Of a stretch of 27,647 bases of DNA, positions 1,813 to 22,748 are shown piece by piece. Under the pieces are notes generated by a model. The model was given only the letters and a program-made list of their open reading frames with translations. It did not search any database and was not told where the DNA came from. The DNA comes from a virus. Within the stretch, counting starts at the first letter, position 1. Each line of letters starts with the position of its first letter. The DNA lies in IMG/VR virus record IMGVR_UViG_3300045256_000072, positions 1-27,647 of that record; one strand, given 5' to 3'. The translations under genes were made by a program, and so were the position numbers.

Positions 1813-2108
1813 TACGCAGGCACGCCCAAGTCGAAAGACGGCCCGTCTTCATCATCAGACCCGATCATGCCCGGTGGTGCGGTTGGGTCCGTGCTGCGGA
1901 TACACTCCATCTTCACCAATCGAAATTCCAGTGGACCAAGACAACCCTCAACCGGGTTCTCTTTGACACCACCCATCTTGCACGTGAACATCCACGCGGC
2001 TTCATCGGCGTTGGCGGCAACGGCCCGCATACACCCGGCACCGTGGGCAACCCGTTTGATCGGGCAGTATCCAACAAACAAGATTCGGTAATGCTTGAGC
2101 TCGTTCAT
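1809..2108 (-). CDS. Unknown protein, last gene of the leftward queE operon
   Basis: A 99-residue protein beginning MNELKHYRILFVGY. I chose the ATG at 2108-2106 because it overlaps the TGA of queE as ATGA, the coupling used throughout this phage; a longer frame runs 19 codons upstream inside queE. It has a hydrophobic N-terminal strand, four Cys residues and an acidic C-terminus (SDDEDGPSFD). I do not recognise a family. Its coupling to queE suggests co-expression with the 7-deazaguanine enzyme, but nothing in the sequence shows a role in that pathway. Its stop codon overlaps that of the convergent tail gene. Confidence 0.6.
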   Translation of the reverse strand: MNELKHYRILFVGYCPIKRVAHGAGCMRAVAANADEAAWMFTCKMGGVKENPVEGCLGPLEFRLVKMECIRSTDPTAPPGMIGSDDEDGPSFDLGVPAY

Positions 2109-2830
2109 GGCAGGCCAGCAATCTTGTGGACTTGGACAGAAAGCCGGTACCCATGTTTCATGCACACTTCGGATGCAGCCCGGAGGTTCCGGGCGTTTGC
2201 CTCGGCGTTGCCCTCATCACACGGTTGAATGAACACGGGCACGGCGGGAACACAACCGGCTTGTTCCGGCCACGGGCGGCAAATACGCTCATCCTGCCCG
2301 AGGATTTGTGTTGACTTGTTGGGCAGCCCGTCTACCGGATCAACTTCACCAGCACGCAGCACGTACTTGTACGCAGTGGCTGCACTGGCAATATCCGGGT
2401 GGATGCGGCGGGTCTTGGGTGACACCACCAAGTCATCAATCCAACAACCCTGCGGAACGGGCAGCGTTCCGGCAGTCTCAACCTGAATGCGGAAGAACCG
2501 CTCATGCACACGGGGTGCGTGCAATCGAACGGTAAGTGGTGCGATGTTCTGCCGGAGCGGTTCGCCCCCGGTCAACACCACCAGTGACGTTGGCCCGCTA
2601 CACACGGTGTTGATCTTGGCCACGAGCTCATCCAGTGTGGGCTTCCACGTGGACGACTCAAACTCGGTATCACAGAAATGACACCGAAGGTTGCACCCGG
2701 CCAACCGAACGAACACGGCGGGTGTTCCGGCAAGTGGCCCTTCGCCTTGAATGGTGTGGAACACTTCCTGCACCCACAAGGTTTGACCATCACCGATGTC
2801 TGCTTTGCGAACAGGATTCTTGCCGTGCAT
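2105..2830 (-). CDS. queE: 7-carboxy-7-deazaguanine synthase QueE (radical SAM)
   Basis: A 241-residue radical-SAM enzyme. QueE converts 6-carboxy-tetrahydropterin to 7-carboxy-7-deazaguanine (CDG), the ring-contraction step of queuosine and 7-deazaguanine synthesis. Visible motifs: the substrate-loop entry FHTIQGEGPLAG (24-35), the cluster motif with C46, C50 and C53 (CX3CX2C, then DTEF), TGGEP (87-91), a VETAGT strand, QPCDE and a C-terminal LSVQVHKIAG, all in family order and at normal length. GGAG lies 6 bases before the ATG and overlaps the end of the upstream GNAT-like gene. The downstream gene overlaps as ATGA. It lies over 12 kb away from queD, folE and dpdA and on the opposite strand, so the pathway is split between two transcription units. 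Confidence 0.92.
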   Translation of the reverse strand: MHGKNPVRKADIGDGQTLWVQEVFHTIQGEGPLAGTPAVFVRLAGCNLRCHFCDTEFESSTWKPTLDELVAKINTVCSGPTSLVVLTGGEPLRQNIAPLTVRLHAPRVHERFFRIQVETAGTLPVPQGCWIDDLVVSPKTRRIHPDIASAATAYKYVLRAGEVDPVDGLPNKSTQILGQDERICRPWPEQAGCVPAVPVFIQPCDEGNAEANARNLRAASEVCMKHGYRLSVQVHKIAGLP

Positions 2831-2832
2831 GA

Positions 2833-3570
2833 TTACTCCGTACTCAATGGCTTGATGAACATATCCCGGGTGGCCGATTGTGCCAGCCCCAACCGATCAT
2901 AGGAACGAAGGGCATCCGTGTTGCGCTCATCCACGCAGCACGTGATGAGTTTGCCCCCGGCGGCTGCCGTCAACATCGACGTTCCAAGACCGATGCCCCG
3001 GGCTTGCGGAGCGAGGCCGAGGTATAACAAATCTCGTTGCGTGTCGAGTTTGCCAAGCAAGCACACACCAACGGGCACACGATCAAGATAACACACCACA
3101 GACTGTGTGGGGTCCAGCCCGTGTGCCCGGTGCGAATCCAACGCCTCGGACGGAGAACGGTATGGGCACAACTCGGGACAATCGGCGGCATCCTCGTAAC
3201 TCAAACCGATCAAGTTTGCAACCAGCGCGTGTGTGTCCCGTGCCCCCAACCGGAACTCAAGATCCGCAATAGTGCGAAGTTGTCCCCGGGCGGTGTGTGG
3301 CCGCTTGACCCACCCTCGCAGGAACACCATGCGGGTGAGGTGGGTGAACCCGGCGGCGGGGTATGGGGCGGGCGTGGATGCCCCGTGGAACGCCAACGCC
3401 AACCGACCACCCGCAACCACGGCGGCTCGGCACAACGAGCCCACGGCGGCGGCAATGGCCCCGGGCGGGGCTTCCCCGGCGGCAACGTGGACCATCCACC
3501 AGCCCCCCGGGATGGATTGCCCGATCACGGCACCGGAGGGCTGCAGGTTGATCGTGATCTCATTGCTCAT
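2833..3570 (-). CDS. GNAT-like acetyltransferase
   Basis: A 245-residue protein whose C-terminal half reads as a GNAT N-acyltransferase fold. There is a strand LLYLGLAPQA followed by the acetyl-CoA pyrophosphate-binding loop RGIGLG (191-196), then LITCCVDERNTDALRSYDRL with the typical Asn (N217) and Tyr (Y224) of motif B. The N-terminal half is Ala/Gly-rich and may be a degenerate second GNAT lobe (inference). Substrate cannot be told. It sits directly before queE with only 2 bases between them, and its ATG overlaps the end of the upstream gene by 11 bases. Acetyltransferases occur in several phage base-modification clusters, so a link to base tailoring is possible but unproven; acetylation of a host protein is an equal alternative. 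Confidence 0.65.
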   Translation of the reverse strand: MSNEITINLQPSGAVIGQSIPGGWWMVHVAAGEAPPGAIAAAVGSLCRAAVVAGGRLALAFHGASTPAPYPAAGFTHLTRMVFLRGWVKRPHTARGQLRTIADLEFRLGARDTHALVANLIGLSYEDAADCPELCPYRSPSEALDSHRAHGLDPTQSVVCYLDRVPVGVCLLGKLDTQRDLLYLGLAPQARGIGLGTSMLTAAAGGKLITCCVDERNTDALRSYDRLGLAQSATRDMFIKPLSTE

Positions 3571-14705: not shown

Positions 14706-15408
14706 CCCACGCCAGGACGAGCGCTTGATGGACTGTACGGCTCGGGTGTGGACGGCCAAATACATTGCTGCGAACGTGTGGCGGGTGCAGCCGGACATGG
14801 ACGAAGACGATTTGTGGCAGGTTGCCCATATGGCGTGGTTCCGGTTCTGCCCGGGAAGTCGCTGGTACACCCAGCGTGACGGCAGCGAGCACCCCGGGTG
14901 GTTCCGGTCAGATCGTGGCATCGCTTCACGTATGCAAGCGTACAAGTTGGCGTTGGTCCGTGACGTGTGCAGCCTGTCCAAGGGTGGCGGCAAGTGCGGG
15001 GTGGGGTGGACCAACAAAGTCAATGAGCGGGCTGTCTCGACGTTCACTGATGACAACGTGGACGGTTCCACCGTGGTTGGGATGTTCGAGACGGGCACGC
15101 CGGTTTCTTCGCGGCTGCTTGATGATGAGCGGGATTGGGTGGCCCCGGCTACCCCGCCCGGGCTGGACGATGAGGAATGGCAAATTCTGGCCCTCGAATG
15201 CCCGGACCTTGTGGAGCTGTACCGTGTCTTTGTGTTGGAGGGCAAGCGGCCCAGGCGGTTCAAGCGGACGGAGCTCCAGGAGCGCGAGATTGAGCGTTGT
15301 GTTGATGCGGTGTTGGTCAGTCGTGGGCTTCGCCCTCGGTTGAGTACGGTGGCGTGGTTGAAGAGCGTCTTGAAAGGGCGAGCGAATGCGAGTCACACGG
15401 ATCGTTGA
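14647..15408 (+). CDS. Unknown protein with a sigma-70 region 2-like segment
   Basis: A 253-residue protein; the ATG at 14647 has AAGGA 8 bases upstream, and a second ATG at 14686 is possible. The segment ERLMDCTARVWTAKYIAANV followed by DEDDLWQVAHMAWFRF recalls sigma-70 region 2 (helix 2.1 then the 'DLvQe....lw.a' of 2.2), and the later RGIASRMQAYKLALVRDV recalls helix 2.4. The C-terminal part (EWQILALECPDLVELYRVFV, then RTELQEREIERCVDAVL) could be a helix-turn-helix but lacks a clear region 4 signature. A phage sigma-like factor is therefore a weak hypothesis; other DNA-binding proteins fit as well. It overlaps the start of queD by 23 bases. Confidence 0.6.
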   Translation: MSTLTTPVAERPTMPKGPIDPRQDERLMDCTARVWTAKYIAANVWRVQPDMDEDDLWQVAHMAWFRFCPGSRWYTQRDGSEHPGWFRSDRGIASRMQAYKLALVRDVCSLSKGGGKCGVGWTNKVNERAVSTFTDDNVDGSTVVGMFETGTPVSSRLLDDERDWVAPATPPGLDDEEWQILALECPDLVELYRVFVLEGKRPRRFKRTELQEREIERCVDAVLVSRGLRPRLSTVAWLKSVLKGRANASHTDR

Positions 15409-15850
15409 GTTTGATGCCGGGCACCGAATCCCACACCACGGCTCAAAGTGCCGGAACGTTCACGGGCACCGGTACCGGCTTGAAGTGACCTTTGAGGGTC
15501 CGATCCGTGAGGCAAACGGTGCGGAAGACGGTGGTATGGTGCTGGACTTTGGCGCTATCAAGTCAGTGTTGATGAGCAAGATCCATGATCCGTGGGATCA
15601 TGCCATGCTTGTTTGGAAGAATGACGTGGCGTTGCTTGAAGCCATGCGAGTGATGGGGGATAATCACAAGACGGTTGTGTTGCCCTGTGTGCCCACGGCG
15701 GAACACTTGGCACAATTGGTGTTTGACGTGTTGGACGCGGAGTTCAATCGGATCTACGGCAGCGAACTCCGTCTTGTTTTTGTGCGTCTCTTTGAGACGC
15801 CGAACTGTTGGGCCGATGCGGTTGCCCCCAACAACGTGAAGGGACAGTGA
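15386..15850 (+). CDS. queD: 6-carboxy-tetrahydropterin synthase QueD
   Basis: A 154-residue member of the 6-pyruvoyl-tetrahydropterin synthase family. QueD converts 7,8-dihydroneopterin triphosphate (from FolE) to 6-carboxy-tetrahydropterin, the substrate of QueE. The zinc ligands H13 (FDAGHRI), H26 and H28 (NVHGH) and the catalytic Cys C22 (GSKCRNVHGH) are all present, as are the later DHAMLV and PTAEHLAQLV segments carrying the catalytic His/Asp and Glu, and a closing ET motif. Length is slightly above the usual 120-140 because of an insert around EANGAEDGG. It starts inside the previous gene; the acidic-protein gene follows after 3 bases. Confidence 0.92.
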   Translation: MRVTRIVEFDAGHRIPHHGSKCRNVHGHRYRLEVTFEGPIREANGAEDGGMVLDFGAIKSVLMSKIHDPWDHAMLVWKNDVALLEAMRVMGDNHKTVVLPCVPTAEHLAQLVFDVLDAEFNRIYGSELRLVFVRLFETPNCWADAVAPNNVKGQ

Positions 15851-15853
15851 CAT

Positions 15854-16633
15854 ATGGCACGGTCGAAGATTGAGAGTGCGGTGCTGGCGGCAACCAAGCA
15901 AGAGCCGAAGGGCGATGACGAGAAGTATCAGGCGTACCTGCTGCGTCTCGTCAAGGCGGTTGACGCGCTGGACGAGAAGACGTGGCGGAAGCTGCCCGAT
16001 TCCGCTCAGGATTGGCACGAAGCCGGCGTGAACGCGGTGAAGGCCGGGAAGCCGATCCAGAACTTCTCTGACGTTGGCGAGGACGAGCCGGCTCCGGCAC
16101 CCAAGGCCAAGCCGAAGGCCACGCCCGTTGCCTCCAAGCCCGCCGAGGACGATGACGACGAGCCCGAGGCCGGTGCCGATGAGGATGCCGGTGAGGATGC
16201 CGGTGATTCCGATGACGAGCCGGCGGATGAGCCCGCCGAGGATGACGAGCCCGAGGCGGGTGCCGATGAGGACGGTGCCGATGAGGACGAACCGGCTCCG
16301 GTGACGAAGCCCAAGCCGTCCAAGCTGAAGGTGGCGGCGGAGGACAAGCCGGCGAAGGCCCCGAAGCCCCCGAAGGCGGCCAAAGAGCCCAAGGGCCCCG
16401 GTGCCACGAATACCCTCATGGGCATCGTGATTGAGGACCCCGGTCTGTCCAAGGCCGAGGCGCTCGAGAAGCTGGCGGCGGCTGGGATGACGATGAGCCC
16501 GGCGGCGGCTTCCACCGGGTACTACATGACTCACCTCGTGCTGCGTGCGCTGAAGGATCGTGGTGTGCTCGACGTGTACGCTGGGGCTTCCAAGCCCAAG
16601 CGTGCGAAGACCGCCGCTGCCGCTGCCGAGTAA
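15854..16633 (+). CDS. Acidic linker protein with helical C-terminal domain, in the modification cluster
   Basis: A 259-residue protein in three parts. Residues 1-75 are a helical domain (KYQAYLLRLVKAVDALDEKT, then SAQDWHEAGVNAVKAGK). Residues about 76-180 are a low-complexity Asp/Glu/Pro/Ala/Lys region with EPAPAPK and EDDDDEPEAG repeats. Residues about 183-245 are a compact helical domain (TNTLMGIVIEDPGLSKAEAL, then GYYMTHLVLRALKDRG) that looks like a small winged-helix or helix-turn-helix unit found in phage proteins. It sits 3 bases after queD and just before the QueC-like gene. The acidic-proline linker is nearly the same type as the tail of the ssDNA-binding protein at 24807. Function unknown. 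Confidence 0.7.
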   Translation: MARSKIESAVLAATKQEPKGDDEKYQAYLLRLVKAVDALDEKTWRKLPDSAQDWHEAGVNAVKAGKPIQNFSDVGEDEPAPAPKAKPKATPVASKPAEDDDDEPEAGADEDAGEDAGDSDDEPADEPAEDDEPEAGADEDGADEDEPAPVTKPKPSKLKVAAEDKPAKAPKPPKAAKEPKGPGATNTLMGIVIEDPGLSKAEALEKLAAAGMTMSPAAASTGYYMTHLVLRALKDRGVLDVYAGASKPKRAKTAAAAAE

Positions 16634-16675: not shown

Positions 16676-16699
16676 AGTATTCAATCAAGGAGCGTTCCC

Positions 16700-17185
16700 A
16701 TGACCAAACCCGGGTGTCTTGTTGTATGCCGTGGCGGCGTTGGGTCCGTGTTTGCGGTGTTGTGGGCGTTGGGTACGTATTCCAACGTTCACGTGGCAAT
16801 CACGGCAACGGACGAGGCCGAGACCAAACTTGAGCAGGCCTTGTTGGCAATTGAGTCCGCCACGGGTAAAACCATCGAGCGGCACGTGTTGCCGCTTGAA
16901 GATCCGCTGGAAGGTGTCTCACCCGGTGCCGTGTTGTTCAGCACCGTGGCGGCTGGTGCGGAGCTGGCGCTGGGCAATTCCGTTGGTGCCGTGGTCTTGG
17001 ACATTACCGCTCAAGACGTGCAACGTGTGGGTGTCAACCTGCTCAACGCACTTTCAATGGCGGTTCAAGCCGTTGAGACCCCCGATTCGATCAATCTGGC
17101 CATGCCGGGTTTGTTGTGGGATGAGAACAAGATCCGTTCGGACACTCGCCCCGGAATGGCCGAGGCGTTGGCCGCTCTCGAGTGA
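16700..17185 (+). CDS. Degenerate QueC-like protein
   Basis: A 161-residue protein with AAGGAGC 7 bases before the ATG. It appears to follow QueC (7-cyano-7-deazaguanine synthase) without its catalytic parts. The opening CLVVCRGGVGSVFAVLWAL aligns with the QueC ATP-pyrophosphatase loop 'VVxFSGGxDSTTCLxWAL', but the SGGxDS motif has become RGGVGS, losing Ser and Asp. VLFSTVAAGAELALGNSVGA aligns with the QueC 'NLLFLSFAAxFAxxxGA' helix, and VLDITAQDVQRVG with the substrate region. The QueC C-terminal zinc cluster (four Cys) is absent, and the protein is about 60 residues shorter than usual. Its place between queD and folE supports the relationship. It may be a non-catalytic subunit, a base-binding protein or a repurposed enzyme. 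The alignment is from memory and needs a profile search. Confidence 0.55.
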   Translation: MTKPGCLVVCRGGVGSVFAVLWALGTYSNVHVAITATDEAETKLEQALLAIESATGKTIERHVLPLEDPLEGVSPGAVLFSTVAAGAELALGNSVGAVVLDITAQDVQRVGVNLLNALSMAVQAVETPDSINLAMPGLLWDENKIRSDTRPGMAEALAALE

Positions 17186-17276: not shown

Positions 17277-17990
17277 ATGGCAAAGTACCGTGTGAACGAT
17301 GCGGGCATGTTGGTTGATCCGACTGGGGCAGTTGTTCCCGGTCCCGGCATTGGTTGCTTGGCTGAATGGGCACGGGACGTGGCAAACGCGGCGGTTGCCC
17401 ACGGGCAGGCTGAAGCGAACAAGACCAAGTCAACTACACCCGAGCAAACCATTCGGCAGTTGTTGGCGTTGGCCGGTGATGACCCCGAACGGGAAGGGCT
17501 TGCAGAAACACCGGCCCGGGTGCTCAAGGCGTACACCAAGTGGTTTGGTGGTTATTCCGTGGACGTGCCCGGGTTGTTCAAGACGTTTGAGGACGGCAGT
17601 GAGCATTACGATCAACTGATCTTGCAACGCAACATTCCTGTGTGGTCTCATTGTGAGCACCATATGGCACCGATCATTGGTGTTGCTCACGTGGGGTACG
17701 TTCCTGATAAGCGAATTGTGGGGTTGTCCAAACTCACGCGGTTGGTGGATGCGTTCTCACGTCGGTTGCAAGTTCAGGAGCGTATCACCACACAGGTTGC
17801 CGATGCACTGGTGGAACATCTCAAACCGCTTGGTGTGGCGGTGGTGCTTGAGTGTCGGCACTTGTGCATGGAATCCCGTGGGGTTTGTGTGTCCAACGTG
17901 CCAACCACCACGCAGGCAGTACGTGGCGTGTTCATGGACAAGCCCGAGGCCCGTGCCGAATTCCTTGATGCCGTTGGAAGGCCCAAATGA
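17277..17990 (+). CDS. folE: GTP cyclohydrolase I FolE
   Basis: A 237-residue GTP cyclohydrolase I, which converts GTP to 7,8-dihydroneopterin triphosphate, the first step toward folate and 7-deazaguanines. Motifs: DDPEREGLAETPARVLKAYT (68-87), the zinc site SHCEHHM with C126 and H129, IVGLSKLTRLVDAFSRRLQV (148-167), QERITTQVADAL, and the third zinc ligand in RHLCM (C197). All key residues are present. The first 50 residues are an extension beyond the minimal fold. ATG 17277 is preferred to an in-frame start at 17259, which lies in the hairpin. An AGTACGG motif lies 7 bases before the ATG. The stop overlaps the dpdA start as ATGA, tying the two together. Confidence 0.93.
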   Translation: MAKYRVNDAGMLVDPTGAVVPGPGIGCLAEWARDVANAAVAHGQAEANKTKSTTPEQTIRQLLALAGDDPEREGLAETPARVLKAYTKWFGGYSVDVPGLFKTFEDGSEHYDQLILQRNIPVWSHCEHHMAPIIGVAHVGYVPDKRIVGLSKLTRLVDAFSRRLQVQERITTQVADALVEHLKPLGVAVVLECRHLCMESRGVCVSNVPTTTQAVRGVFMDKPEARAEFLDAVGRPK

Positions 17991-19144
17991 AGAAACAAGT
18001 TCGGTTGATGTTGGATTCGGGGGCTTACACGGCGTGGGGGCTAAACAAGACAATTGATCTTGTTGAGTACATTGATTGGATTGGCAATCACCAACACCTG
18101 TTGGATTCGTACGTTTGTCTTGACGTTATCCCGGGTGTTCGCGGGAAGGCGGTGTCACTTGCCGATTTGGAGGACGGGGCGAAGCAATCATGGAAGTCGT
18201 TTGTGGCCATGCGAAAGGCGGGGCTGGACCCAATGCCCGTGTGGCACCTTGGGGAACGACTGTATTGGTTGGATAAGATGTTGGATTCCGGGGCAACTTA
18301 CGTGGGCATCGGTGCCCGTGGGTTGACGGATCGGCAGTTTCGGTACGATCAAGTCTTTGCTCACTTGTGCGGGCGTGGTGGGTTCCCGTCCGTTCGCATT
18401 CACGGGTTTGCTATGACAAGCCCGAAGCTGTTGTACCGGTATCCGTGGCATTCGGTGGACTCTACCACGTGGGGGCATTGGTCCCGGTACGGGTGCGTTC
18501 AAGTGCCCACCGTGGTTGACGGCAAACCGTTCTATGGTGCCCCGCCTCATATCGTCCACGTGAGTGATTTGAGCCGCTCAGCCGGTGCGTTGGCGATTGA
18601 CGCGGCGGTGCTCAAACAGCCCGCACAGTACACGAAGCTTGGTGTGGCGGAACGTCGCTACGTGGATGATTACCTCGCTTCGCTTGGGCTTGATTACGCC
18701 CGGGTGTCCACTGATGGTGATGCCAGGATTGAGGCCAACGTGGCCTACTTCAAGCGAATGGCCGAGACGTACCACCCCAGCCCGTTCATGGGCGTGGATG
18801 ATTCCGGGTTGTTCGGTGGTGAGTCCACCCCGCCCCGTGACGGCACCACGATCAACGAACATGGTGATATGAGGATGGTGTTCTCTGCCGGAACGTCAGC
18901 CAACTACGCGGCAATCATGGTGAAGCTTGGTTGCCGTGACCAACTGATCTCATATTGGGAACTCAAGGACCGAAAGGGCTTTGATCTGGCCGAGTACGTG
19001 CGGACTGGTCTGTTGCCCGAACGTAAGAACAAAGTGACCAAGAAACCGTCCAAGGTGCGTGGGGTTGATGTTGTGGTTGCCCCGAAACTTCCCAAGAGGC
19101 GTGCCAAGCCGGTTGGTTGGAAAGGACTTCAGTATGGAACGTGA
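17987..19144 (+). CDS. dpdA: DpdA-like DNA 7-deazaguanine transglycosylase
   Basis: A 385-residue member of the tRNA-guanine transglycosylase superfamily, of the phage DpdA type, which exchanges guanine in DNA for a 7-deazaguanine base. The TGT-like active-site strand reads RLMLDSGAYTAW with D10 as the counterpart of the 'DSGGFQ' Asp. This is followed by YVCLDVIPG, HLGERLYWL, YVGIGARG, then RIHGFAMTSP and PWHSVDSTTWGHW, where D158 is a candidate catalytic nucleophile. The C-terminal third (from about 300) is basic (KNKVTKKPSKVRG, then KLPKRRAK), consistent with DNA contact. It overlaps folE as ATGA, which fits a dedicated DNA-modification operon. Family call is by motif and context; which base it inserts cannot be read. 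Confidence 0.85.
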   Translation: MKKQVRLMLDSGAYTAWGLNKTIDLVEYIDWIGNHQHLLDSYVCLDVIPGVRGKAVSLADLEDGAKQSWKSFVAMRKAGLDPMPVWHLGERLYWLDKMLDSGATYVGIGARGLTDRQFRYDQVFAHLCGRGGFPSVRIHGFAMTSPKLLYRYPWHSVDSTTWGHWSRYGCVQVPTVVDGKPFYGAPPHIVHVSDLSRSAGALAIDAAVLKQPAQYTKLGVAERRYVDDYLASLGLDYARVSTDGDARIEANVAYFKRMAETYHPSPFMGVDDSGLFGGESTPPRDGTTINEHGDMRMVFSAGTSANYAAIMVKLGCRDQLISYWELKDRKGFDLAEYVRTGLLPERKNKVTKKPSKVRGVDVVVAPKLPKRRAKPVGWKGLQYGT

Positions 19145-20192
19145 AGCGTTGGTGTCTAAACTGTCCCTCGTGGCCCCCGCTCTGTCCAGCAAAGACATCA
19201 TTGCGGTGTTGTCTTGCGTGTGCTTCGATGGTGCCACGGTTACGGCTTATGATGACGTGGTGGCGATTCAGGCCCCGTTGGAGATGGATATCAAGTGTGG
19301 GGTGCGTGGCTCAACCTTGCTCGGGTTCCTGAACGTGTGTAAGTCGTCTGAGGTGACGCTGGAGAAGCGCAAGGATTGCGTGTACGTCAAGGCGGGCAAG
19401 GCGGATCTCAAGTTGCCGTTTGTTGAGCCCGCCGACTTTGTGTTCAAGGTCCCGGCGGATGAAGCGGTGGTGCTGCCTACCACGGAGGACTTCATCAACG
19501 GCGTGGCTTCCATGCTCGAATCAATGGGTGTGGACACCTCCCACCCGTGGCGTCTTGGTGTGTCGGTTGAATTCAGCGCCGAAGGTGCCACGTTGTTCAC
19601 CAACAACAACATGCACGTTGGTTGCCGTCAGTTCGTTCCGATGGACACGGTGCCGAAGGCGTTGCGTGACCGGTTCTATACGCTGCACCCGCAATTCATC
19701 ACACTGCTTGTGAACATGGCCAAGAAGGATTGGCCCAAGACCATTGAGTTTGGTTCGGCGTGGGCGTGTGCCCGGTTCGAGTCCGGGGCGGTGTTGTACG
19801 TTCGGCTCATTGAGCAAACGGATCAGAAGAACCATCACGCGGTGTTCCGTGCGGCAAAGGCGGAGTTTGCCAAGTACAAGGGCCAACCGTTCCCCAAGGG
19901 CTTTGAGCGGACGCTGCAACGTTCGTTGGTGGTCCTCGAAGGACTGAATGATCGGGTGTGCCAATTCACGGTGTCCGGTGGTTCGCTGGCATCGGAAGCC
20001 AAGTCGATGTTTGGGGAAGCCAAAGACGTGTCGGTGTTGGCGGGGCACGTTGACGCGGTGTCTATCTCGTTCCCCGATATCATGTTGAAGGCCATGCCGG
20101 GGTGTGATTCGGTGGCGTTCTCACCGAAGGGCGTGGTGTTCACGGGTCCGAATCGTGTGGCCCTCGTTCGTGCCCAAGCCAAAGTGGGTTGA
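19134..20192 (+). CDS. Putative DNA polymerase sliding clamp (DnaN-like)
   Basis: A 352-residue protein with GAAAGGA 7 bases before the ATG at 19134; the start overlaps the end of dpdA. The opening LVSKLSLVAPALSSKD followed by VLSCVCFDGATVTAYDDVVA resembles phage beta-clamp-like proteins (first-domain pattern 'L..V.p.lS.K....LSC..F.g..v.AYDD..A'). Length (about 350) and a closing SVAFSPKGVVFTGPNRVALV strand pair fit three clamp-type domains. It sits directly before the polymerase gene and 3 kb before a clamp-loader ATPase, which supports a processivity factor. Similarity is weak by eye, so a structure prediction would be needed to be sure. Confidence 0.65.
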   Translation: MEREALVSKLSLVAPALSSKDIIAVLSCVCFDGATVTAYDDVVAIQAPLEMDIKCGVRGSTLLGFLNVCKSSEVTLEKRKDCVYVKAGKADLKLPFVEPADFVFKVPADEAVVLPTTEDFINGVASMLESMGVDTSHPWRLGVSVEFSAEGATLFTNNNMHVGCRQFVPMDTVPKALRDRFYTLHPQFITLLVNMAKKDWPKTIEFGSAWACARFESGAVLYVRLIEQTDQKNHHAVFRAAKAEFAKYKGQPFPKGFERTLQRSLVVLEGLNDRVCQFTVSGGSLASEAKSMFGEAKDVSVLAGHVDAVSISFPDIMLKAMPGCDSVAFSPKGVVFTGPNRVALVRAQAKVG

Positions 20193-20201
20193 CATTCGTC
20201 T

Positions 20202-22748
20202 ATGGATGATCTGTTTACACGTGCAGAGCAACGGGCGGCACCGGCGGTGGCTCAACCAAAGTCGGTTGTGTCGCTGCAACTGTTGCACAAGATGGAGTGT
20301 CGTGCCTGTCCGTTGAACAAAGCGGACGTGTGCAGCCCCAAGATGCAACCCGAAGGACCCGATGATCCGTTGATCTACGTGCTTGATGAGTACCCAAGCA
20401 AGGACACGGATGAGCGGGGAGTGCATTTGTCCGGTGGTTCTGGTAAGTTGTTCCGTGGGTGTGTTCCTGAAGAGGTGTTGGATCGGGTGCGGTACAACTC
20501 GGTGATTCGTACCCGCCCACCAAACCGGGTGCCGGACCCGGTTGAGATCGAGTGCTGCCGTCCATCCATCGTGCGGGACATTGAGCGGACCAAACCCAAA
20601 GCCATCATTGGGCTTGGCAACATTCCGCTTCAATGGTTGACTGGTTATTCCGGCATCGAACCGTGGCGTGGTCGGAGGATGCCCGTTCGTGTTGGTTCCC
20701 ACGTGTGTTGGTTCTTCCCGGTGATGCACCCGGCGTACGTCCTCAAGATGGAATTTGACCGTGGAGAATCGAAACTTGGGAAGGAATACCGGTGGGCGTT
20801 CAAGCGTGACATTCAACGTGCCGTGGGGCTCGTATTGGACGGGCTGCCGGTGCCGGTGGTCCACGGCCCGGATGATGCCCGGAACGGCGTGGAACGAATC
20901 GTGCCCGGTCCCGGTGCCCTTCGGGCGTTGAAGGACGCGGTGGCCCGAATCACGGATGGACAAGCCCTTGTGGGCATCGACCTCGAGACCACAAAGTTGA
21001 GGCCGTTCTCTAAAGGGGCGGCGGTGTTGTCCGTGGCGTTGTCCAACGGAACGACTACGGTGGCATTCCCGTTTGACCATCCGGCGGCATCGTGGGGGGA
21101 TGAGCGCAATTCCGTAGTCAAGTTGATTCGGCGGGTGTTGTTGGATTCGGAGCGGGCACGGGTTGCCCACAACGCAAAGTTTGAGATTGAGTGGTGCGGG
21201 GTGGTGTTTGGAGAGGACACCGTGCGGGGTGGTGTGTGGGAATGCTCGCAGGCAGCGGAGTACATTCTCGATTGTCGGGCTGGTTCCGGTGTGCAGTCGT
21301 TGGGTGGTTGCACCATGCAGGAATTCGGGCTCGATATCAAGCGATTGTCAACGGTGGATGTTGAACGCCCGTTGTCTTATCCGGTTGATGCGTTGCTTGA
21401 ATACAACGGCATGGACGCGGCGTATTCTGTGCGTTTGCTGCTTCGGTATTACAAGCGGTTGTCTCGTGAAGGGTTGCTTGATGCGTACAAGATGCACGTG
21501 AAGCGGTTGCCCACACTGGCACAAGCGCAAATTGACGGTGTGCCGGTTGACCAGGCCCGGGTTCGTGCCTTTGACGTTGATCTCGGCGGGCGTGCGGATG
21601 CCCTTCGCAAAGAAATTGCGGCGTTGCCCGAGGTCAAGTCGTACGTTCGTGCGGTTGGTCGGTTCAATCCTGAATCATCGGAGGAAGTAGCTAAACTGTT
21701 GCGTGACCACCTCAAACGCAAAGAAGGCGAACAACGCAACGGAAAGTACAGCACGGACAAAGAAGCGTTGGACAAGATGAAGGATTGTGCCGTTGCCGGT
21801 TTGGTGTTGAAGTTGCGTGCGGTTACTAAATTGCATTCAACGTACATCACCCCGTTGTTGCCGGGTGACGACTCGTTGGTGTACCCCGATGGGTTGTTGC
21901 ACACGAACTTCAACACCACGTTTACCGACACCGGGCGGTTGTCTTCCGATGAACCGAATCTGCAGAATTACCCCAAGCGTCGCAATGCCGAGATTCGGGC
22001 GGTGGTGGCCCCGCGTTCGGATGAAGTGATGATTGCAGCTGACTACGGGCAGATTGAGGCCCGTGTGATTGCAATGGCTAGTCGGGATAAGAGGTTGGTT
22101 GATGCGTTGTGGCACAACTACGATATCCATATGGCGTGGGCGGAGCGGGTGGCCACGTTGGATGACCGGGTGTTGAAGGCACGCGGAGGCAATATGAAGG
22201 TGTTGCGCTCCGATATCAAGAACATGCTGGTGTTCCCGGCGTTCTACGGTGCGTTCCCCGCGTCTATTGGGGCATCGTTGCAAATGCAACCACGGGTGGT
22301 TGATAAGTTGTTTGATGAATTCTGGTCTGAATTTGCCGGTGTCAAGACGTGGCAGGAGGACTTGTTGGCCGGGTACGAGCGTGATGGTTACGTCTCTTGT
22401 TTGACTGGCAGACGCCGGTATGGCCCGCTCAACAAGAACATGATTATCAACAGCCCAGTGCAGGGCACGGCGTCTGATCTGGTTGTTGGTGCCATGAACC
22501 GTTTGAGCGTTCACGCTTACAACGATGAGGGCAAACGCCACTTGCAGGCACGTATGAACATCCACGATGACCTCACTTTCATTGTACCTAAACGGTTGGT
22601 TGATGAGTCAGTGAATGACATTGTGCGGCAAATGGTGCGGGTGAAATACGATTGGATCAACGTTCCCATCTCGGTTGAGGTGGCCGTTGGTCCGAACTGG
22701 CACGAACTCAAAGAAGTTGGCAAGTTTGAGTCCCATAAGATGCAATGA
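20202..22748 (+). CDS. Uracil-DNA glycosylase / 3'-5' exonuclease / family A DNA polymerase fusion
   Basis: An 848-residue three-part protein. Residues 1-210 read as a UDG family 4/5-like domain: C33-x2-C36 (ECRACPL), a Gly-rich SGGSGKLF loop, NSVIRTRPPNRVPDP, ECCRPSI (C118/C119), KAIIGLGNIPLQWLTG and HPAYVL (176-181), resembling iron-sulfur UDGs. Residues about 250-430 are a proofreading exonuclease with D260/E262 (GIDLETT), N324 (VAHNAKFEIEW) and D405 (YNGMDAAYSV). Residues 430-848 are a Pol I-type polymerase: TGRL (R580), motif A IAADYGQIEAR (D614), motif B DIKNMLVFPAFYG (671-683) and motif C NIHDDLTF (D789). All polymerase and exonuclease residues look intact; UDG activity is less certain. 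There is no 5' nuclease domain. It would be the phage replicative polymerase. Confidence 0.88.
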   Translation: MDDLFTRAEQRAAPAVAQPKSVVSLQLLHKMECRACPLNKADVCSPKMQPEGPDDPLIYVLDEYPSKDTDERGVHLSGGSGKLFRGCVPEEVLDRVRYNSVIRTRPPNRVPDPVEIECCRPSIVRDIERTKPKAIIGLGNIPLQWLTGYSGIEPWRGRRMPVRVGSHVCWFFPVMHPAYVLKMEFDRGESKLGKEYRWAFKRDIQRAVGLVLDGLPVPVVHGPDDARNGVERIVPGPGALRALKDAVARITDGQALVGIDLETTKLRPFSKGAAVLSVALSNGTTTVAFPFDHPAASWGDERNSVVKLIRRVLLDSERARVAHNAKFEIEWCGVVFGEDTVRGGVWECSQAAEYILDCRAGSGVQSLGGCTMQEFGLDIKRLSTVDVERPLSYPVDALLEYNGMDAAYSVRLLLRYYKRLSREGLLDAYKMHVKRLPTLAQAQIDGVPVDQARVRAFDVDLGGRADALRKEIAALPEVKSYVRAVGRFNPESSEEVAKLLRDHLKRKEGEQRNGKYSTDKEALDKMKDCAVAGLVLKLRAVTKLHSTYITPLLPGDDSLVYPDGLLHTNFNTTFTDTGRLSSDEPNLQNYPKRRNAEIRAVVAPRSDEVMIAADYGQIEARVIAMASRDKRLVDALWHNYDIHMAWAERVATLDDRVLKARGGNMKVLRSDIKNMLVFPAFYGAFPASIGASLQMQPRVVDKLFDEFWSEFAGVKTWQEDLLAGYERDGYVSCLTGRRRYGPLNKNMIINSPVQGTASDLVVGAMNRLSVHAYNDEGKRHLQARMNIHDDLTFIVPKRLVDESVNDIVRQMVRVKYDWINVPISVEVAVGPNWHELKEVGKFESHKMQ

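Follow-up and report, generated by a model that had tools for sequence, protein, structure and literature searches.

Gene Content of the Locus

We analyzed a 27,647-nucleotide stretch of viral DNA (IMG/VR record IMGVR_UViG_3300045256_000072), hereafter called the window. The features discussed below are as follows.

2105–2830, minus strand: QueE (7-carboxy-7-deazaguanine synthase, radical SAM); PF04055, phrog_2076 (8.4e-50)
15386–15850, plus strand: QueD (6-carboxytetrahydropterin synthase); PF01242 (3.8e-30), phrog_2389
15854–16633, plus strand: acidic protein, whose counterparts in related phages separate QueD from QueC; phrog_38529
16687–16692, plus strand: likely ribosome-binding site AAGGAG, 7 nt 5′ of the ORF161 ATG
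16700–17185, plus strand: ORF161, 161 codons from an ATG start; a protein derived from QueC that lacks its catalytic motifs
16730–16747, plus strand: codons for RGGVGS (ORF161 residues 11–16), at the position of the SGGxDS pyrophosphate loop, with S replaced by R and D by G
17277–17990, plus strand: FolE (GTP cyclohydrolase I); PF01227 (1.3e-65)
17987–19144, plus strand: DpdA-type DNA transglycosylase; phrog_887 (3.7e-38)
19134–20192, plus strand: DnaN-like processivity factor, a syntenic marker; phrog_947
20202–22748, plus strand: PolA-type DNA polymerase, a syntenic marker; phrog_17

The setting is that of 7-deazaguanine DNA modification, as an earlier note on this DNA had proposed: QueD (15386), FolE (17277), and DpdA (17987) lie close to ORF161, and QueE stands outside the cluster, 13 kb away on the opposite strand, where a GNAT acetyltransferase gene (2833–3570, minus strand) adjoins it. 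All four enzymes are thus encoded in the window, and FolE, QueD, and DpdA have the expected active-site residues. FolE residues C136, H138, H139, and C207 (alignment numbering) are invariant, as are D10 and D158 of DpdA in a three-sequence alignment. QueD is 49% identical to that of a related phage, L005, with C22, H26, H28, D71, H72, and E137 common to both. QueE was assigned solely from its family match and a CxxxCxxC-type motif (CNLRCHFC); its match to TIGR04508 (2.1e-25) falls below the curated cut-off. QueF was not found in the window and was likewise not found near QueC in L004, L006, or L007, so its absence from the window says little. In the PolA tree, the window is sister to L005 (SH-aLRT 88), which carries QueF.

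Related phages were retrieved with DpdA, QueD, PolA, and FolE queries, and their gene order at this place is QueD, acidic protein, QueC, FolE, DpdA, DnaN, PolA. The order acidic protein, QueC, FolE, DpdA recurs in 22 loci, several of them from one record, and ORF161 occupies the slot where these phages have a full QueC. The acidic protein adjoins QueD or QueC in many relatives and is also present in related loci with no Que genes found, for example, L107, L122, and L135. Other variations concern the flanking genes. In 19 loci (including L003:6473–7369, L154, L205, L153, L158, L161, and L165; at least two of the 19 are re-fetches of L003's record), the FolE ORF has an N-terminal extension bearing phosphoribosyltransferase-type motifs. 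Two or three tandem DpdA-like ORFs per cluster are found in L006, L007, and L106.

Coding Character of ORF161

The ORF161 frame is intact and without breaks, its codon-usage score is 0.206 per codon (0.147–0.297 for the other genes of the window), and its GC content by codon position resembles that of those genes. Under a first-order Markov model of ORF161 composition, 161 consecutive codons would escape a stop with a probability of 0.028, so the open frame on its own is a weak argument for a living gene. Taken with the codon usage and the ribosome site, it makes ORF161 look like one, and neither of the marks of a pseudogene, a broken frame or lost coding statistics, was seen in it. The protein is 58–71 residues shorter than the solved QueCs (219 and 232 aa), matching the deficit of about 60 residues given in the earlier note, and about 95–130 residues shorter than the syntenic phage QueCs. 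A frameshift concealing the lost motifs was considered and rejected, as the approximately 66 bp 5′ and 91 bp 3′ of ORF161 leave no space for these motifs.

ORF161 Lacks the Catalytic Motifs of QueC

We compared the motifs by aligning ORF161 with 18 QueCs. Both the alignments and residues 11–16 themselves agree with the earlier observation that RGGVGS stands where QueC has SGGxDS, and this pyrophosphate loop is therefore absent from ORF161. The YxQxHxxE motif is also absent, the aligned residues being EAETKLEQ, and the stretch that would hold VPxRN is gone. At YPDC, ORF161 aligns AQDV, in which D alone is kept, in an uncertain part of the alignment. The zinc motif C(x)8CxxCxxC, with Tyr189, lies in a region upstream of which ORF161 terminates. 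Only two cysteines, C6 and C10, occur in the whole protein, which consequently has no Cys4 site; the four-Cys zinc end reported missing is indeed missing.

Published mutants indicate what such losses would entail. In E. coli QueC, the substitutions Y35A, R99A, Y131A, and Y189A each destroy function (PMC13329287), and in QatC a double S156A/S161A substitution in the SGGxDS loop kills defense (PMC13279940). The clusters detailed in the available part of the 2026 QueC-family survey retain the ATP loop (PMC13329287). Because of the QueC and QatC mutants, ORF161 is expected to be catalytically inactive and should not convert CDG to preQ0. Of the previous claim that this copy is unable to run the usual reaction, the loss of the signature stands, and the inactivity itself is an expectation by analogy with these mutants.

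Zinc-Free QueCs in Related Phages

The earlier note missed that loss of the zinc cysteines alone is widespread in the QueCs of related phages and does not have to imply an inactive enzyme. Of 132 nonredundant QueC-family sequences from phages, 35 were marked as devoid of all four zinc cysteines. One of these, L022, was rejected as an alignment artifact because its sequence holds CGVCPTC, and 34 remain. The zinc-free QueCs retain SGGxDS, VPxRN, and full length, and 32 of the 35 sequences first marked have an unbroken YPDC. Joined by the partly reduced sequences of L005 and L007, the zinc-free QueCs make up a 36-row group in the QueC tree (SH-aLRT 92). Edwardsiella phage ZHS has a QueC of the zinc-free kind. 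The 34 include those of L001, L006, L008, L009, L011, L013, L018–L021, and L024, as well as L093, L146–L149, L151, L155, L156, L167, and others. QueF uses preQ0, and its presence in L005 and in the zinc-free L024 suggests that the zinc-free QueCs, judged from gene content, may still work.

Sequence and Predicted Fold Point to QueC Descent

Searches of ORF161 against Pfam, PHROGs, NCBIfam, and PDB sequences gave nothing usable. PF06508 had no match at E ≤ 1 within the window, nor by hmmscan with ORF161. Comparison with the QueCs of related phages was more informative. A close profile of 17 QueCs scored ORF161 at 9.4 bits, above the best of 5,000 shuffles (5.2), which upholds the QueC-like pattern described earlier; a broader 55-sequence profile gave 5.9 bits and no separation, with one shuffle reaching 14.2. 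When the 1,601 ORFs of 20 loci in which no QueC had been detected were ranked, ORF161 came first by the close profile (9.1 versus 5.8) and second by the broad one. By BLASTP against the same-position QueC of the relative L003, 24 of 81 residues are identical, starting from residue 1, with an E value of 2e-6 that applies to this single comparison only. The best BLASTP score of ORF161, 32.3 bits, was tied by 1 of 1,000 shuffles. The collinear similarity takes in the WAL, EGxSP, and LFxxxAA motifs.

Alignment-free structure prediction of ORF161 gave a best model with a mean pLDDT of 68 (35–46 for the other four). Among 50 matches listed for this model, B. subtilis QueC 3BL5 (E = 6e-4) had the highest TM-score of the near-full-length matches, 0.58 on QueC; the best E value belonged to Csm6, and glycosyltransferases and dehydrogenases were also matched. 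A model guided by the 17 QueCs reached a mean pLDDT of 74, and its top three matches were 3BL5, 2PG3, and Cap9, all of the QueC family; it depends on that QueC alignment and is not independent evidence. A structural likeness to QueC is supported by TM-score and by the guided model, but not by the best alignment-free E value. In these models, ORF161 has a predicted QueC-type fold and probably retains a shortened Rossmann-type core.

None of these lines is sufficient alone. Combined, the QueC slot, the collinear similarity, and the predicted fold make a convincing case for descent from QueC, in keeping with the ancestry first suggested for ORF161; the ancestor was most likely the queC that this phage itself had in the cluster.

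No Second ORF161 Found among Related Phages

A single-protein scan of viral contigs returned no second ORF161, and tblastn of ORF161 in phages gave chance matches only. Searching 13 related records with ORF161 yielded only weak QueC matches. Alignment scans with DpdA, QueD, PolA, and FolE retrieved relatives and no second ORF161, and searches of genome contigs produced nothing with DnaN and five distant relatives with PolA. The 20 loci in which QueC went undetected were checked specifically, and none yielded a further ORF161-like candidate.

We also inspected the 171 QueC-family ORFs of the fetched loci. Four lack an exact xGGxDS: a contig-end fragment shared by two loci, a second fragment, and a sequence that reads SGGLDT. 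No complete QueC-family protein without a GGxD loop was found among the 171, in a profile search that a QueC as diverged as ORF161 would escape. QueC-family genes of L035, L041, L048, and L054 that appeared to lack SGG were rejected as candidates, their loops being TGGxDS. In L035, L036, L041, L048, and L054, two QueC-family genes stand side by side, and the loop of one of them is TGGxDS.

The earlier note had envisaged a conserved non-catalytic QueC and had proposed looking for the same variant in other phages with DpdA. Such conservation found no support: ORF161 was a singleton in every scan of related phages and is the only such copy that we found.

A Pathway That May End at CDG

FolE, QueD, and QueE would convert GTP through CPH4 to CDG. 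If QueC is lacking, CDG would be the last product; the pathway would now stop at QueE, and DpdA would put CDG, or preQ0 made by the host, into DNA. The likeliest reading, to which we give about an even chance, makes ORF161 a pseudoenzyme derived from QueC, with CDG as the endpoint of the pathway. Which base enters the DNA, and what ORF161 may still do, are inferred here. Reportedly, according to a 2023 paper, dCDG can occur in phage DNA. FolE, QueD, QueE, and DpdA are present without a PF06508 match in records of 59.6, 87.3, 68.9, and 65.3 kb, and in Mycobacterium phage Bipper QueC is the sole missing enzyme (PMC6884629). Host QueC could also supply preQ0 to the phage. That ORF161 has been kept as a non-catalytic partner made from QueC, such as a CDG carrier or an adaptor for DpdA, in a phage with CDG in its DNA, seems unlikely to us.

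The main rival, which we hold to be less likely, is that a working QueC lies outside the 27.6-kb record, so that the in-cluster copy was freed and drifted or was retasked, and the base derives from preQ0 as usual. The record is a fragment, and the window stops 10 kb past FolE. The earlier reading missed this status, and two related records place a full QueC about 15 kb from FolE. L108's record has no QueC between the acidic protein and FolE and a full QueC approximately 15 kb downstream, where a DUF5591 protein of the archaeosine-synthase type lies 0.4 kb from it; in L170's record, QueC lies approximately 16 kb downstream of FolE. Against such a relocation, the best QueC match in the 19 related records that have one falls within the cluster region that was retrieved, close to FolE or DpdA, and the sister phage L005 still has QueC in the cluster. 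A relocated full QueC with a DUF5591 gene close by, one short ORF between them, is seen at L138:5613–7809 (minus strand).

The remaining explanations concern ORF161 itself. It is a singleton that has diverged far beyond its neighbors, with large in-frame losses, as a functionless pseudogene being lost might have; the intact frame, the ribosome site, and the gene-like coding statistics (codon usage and positional GC) make this improbable. We consider it very improbable that a different small protein of the Rossmann type, such as a GGVGS-type nucleotide binder, replaced queC in place. Such an origin would fit the lack of a library match, the occurrence of GGVGS in ThiF/E1-type loops as well, and the Csm6, glycosyltransferase, and dehydrogenase matches of the alignment-free model; it fits poorly with the position of ORF161, with similarity to QueC that is collinear from residue 1, with QueC as the best listed TM-score, and with the finding of no ThiF match to ORF161 at E ≤ 1.

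As this copy is probably no maker of preQ0, the phage must use an earlier precursor or an outside supply. A living descendant of the ORF161 type without the ATP loop would be a QueC pseudoenzyme, and ORF161 draws attention to phages in which CDG seems to be the final product of the pathway. Separately, the zinc-free clade makes the zinc requirement of QueC testable.

Comparison with Known Systems

ORF161 resembles QueC (PF06508; solved structures 3BL5 and 2PG3) in its FolE-adjacent position, predicted fold, and collinear N-terminus. Canonical QueC has approximately 220–290 aa with SGGxDS, YxQxHxxE, VPxRN, and Cys4 motifs, whereas ORF161 has 161 aa and none of these. The zinc-free phage QueCs (L001, L006, L008, L009, L024, and others) share the gene neighborhood of ORF161 and have also lost the zinc cysteines, yet they keep SGGxDS, VPxRN, full length, and mostly YPDC, which ORF161 does not. 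QatC and Cap9 share with ORF161 a QueC scaffold that deviates from the canonical enzyme; both are catalytic and retain the ATP loop, whereas the loop of ORF161 is lost to RGGVGS (PMC13329287, PMC13279940). Closest in gene content are the QueC-less clusters of the Bipper type (PMC6884629), in which, as here, FolE, QueD, QueE, and DpdA occur and an intact QueC was not seen, and for which CDG is a possible base, as it is for the window. Unlike those clusters, the window keeps a decayed QueC descendant in the queC slot.
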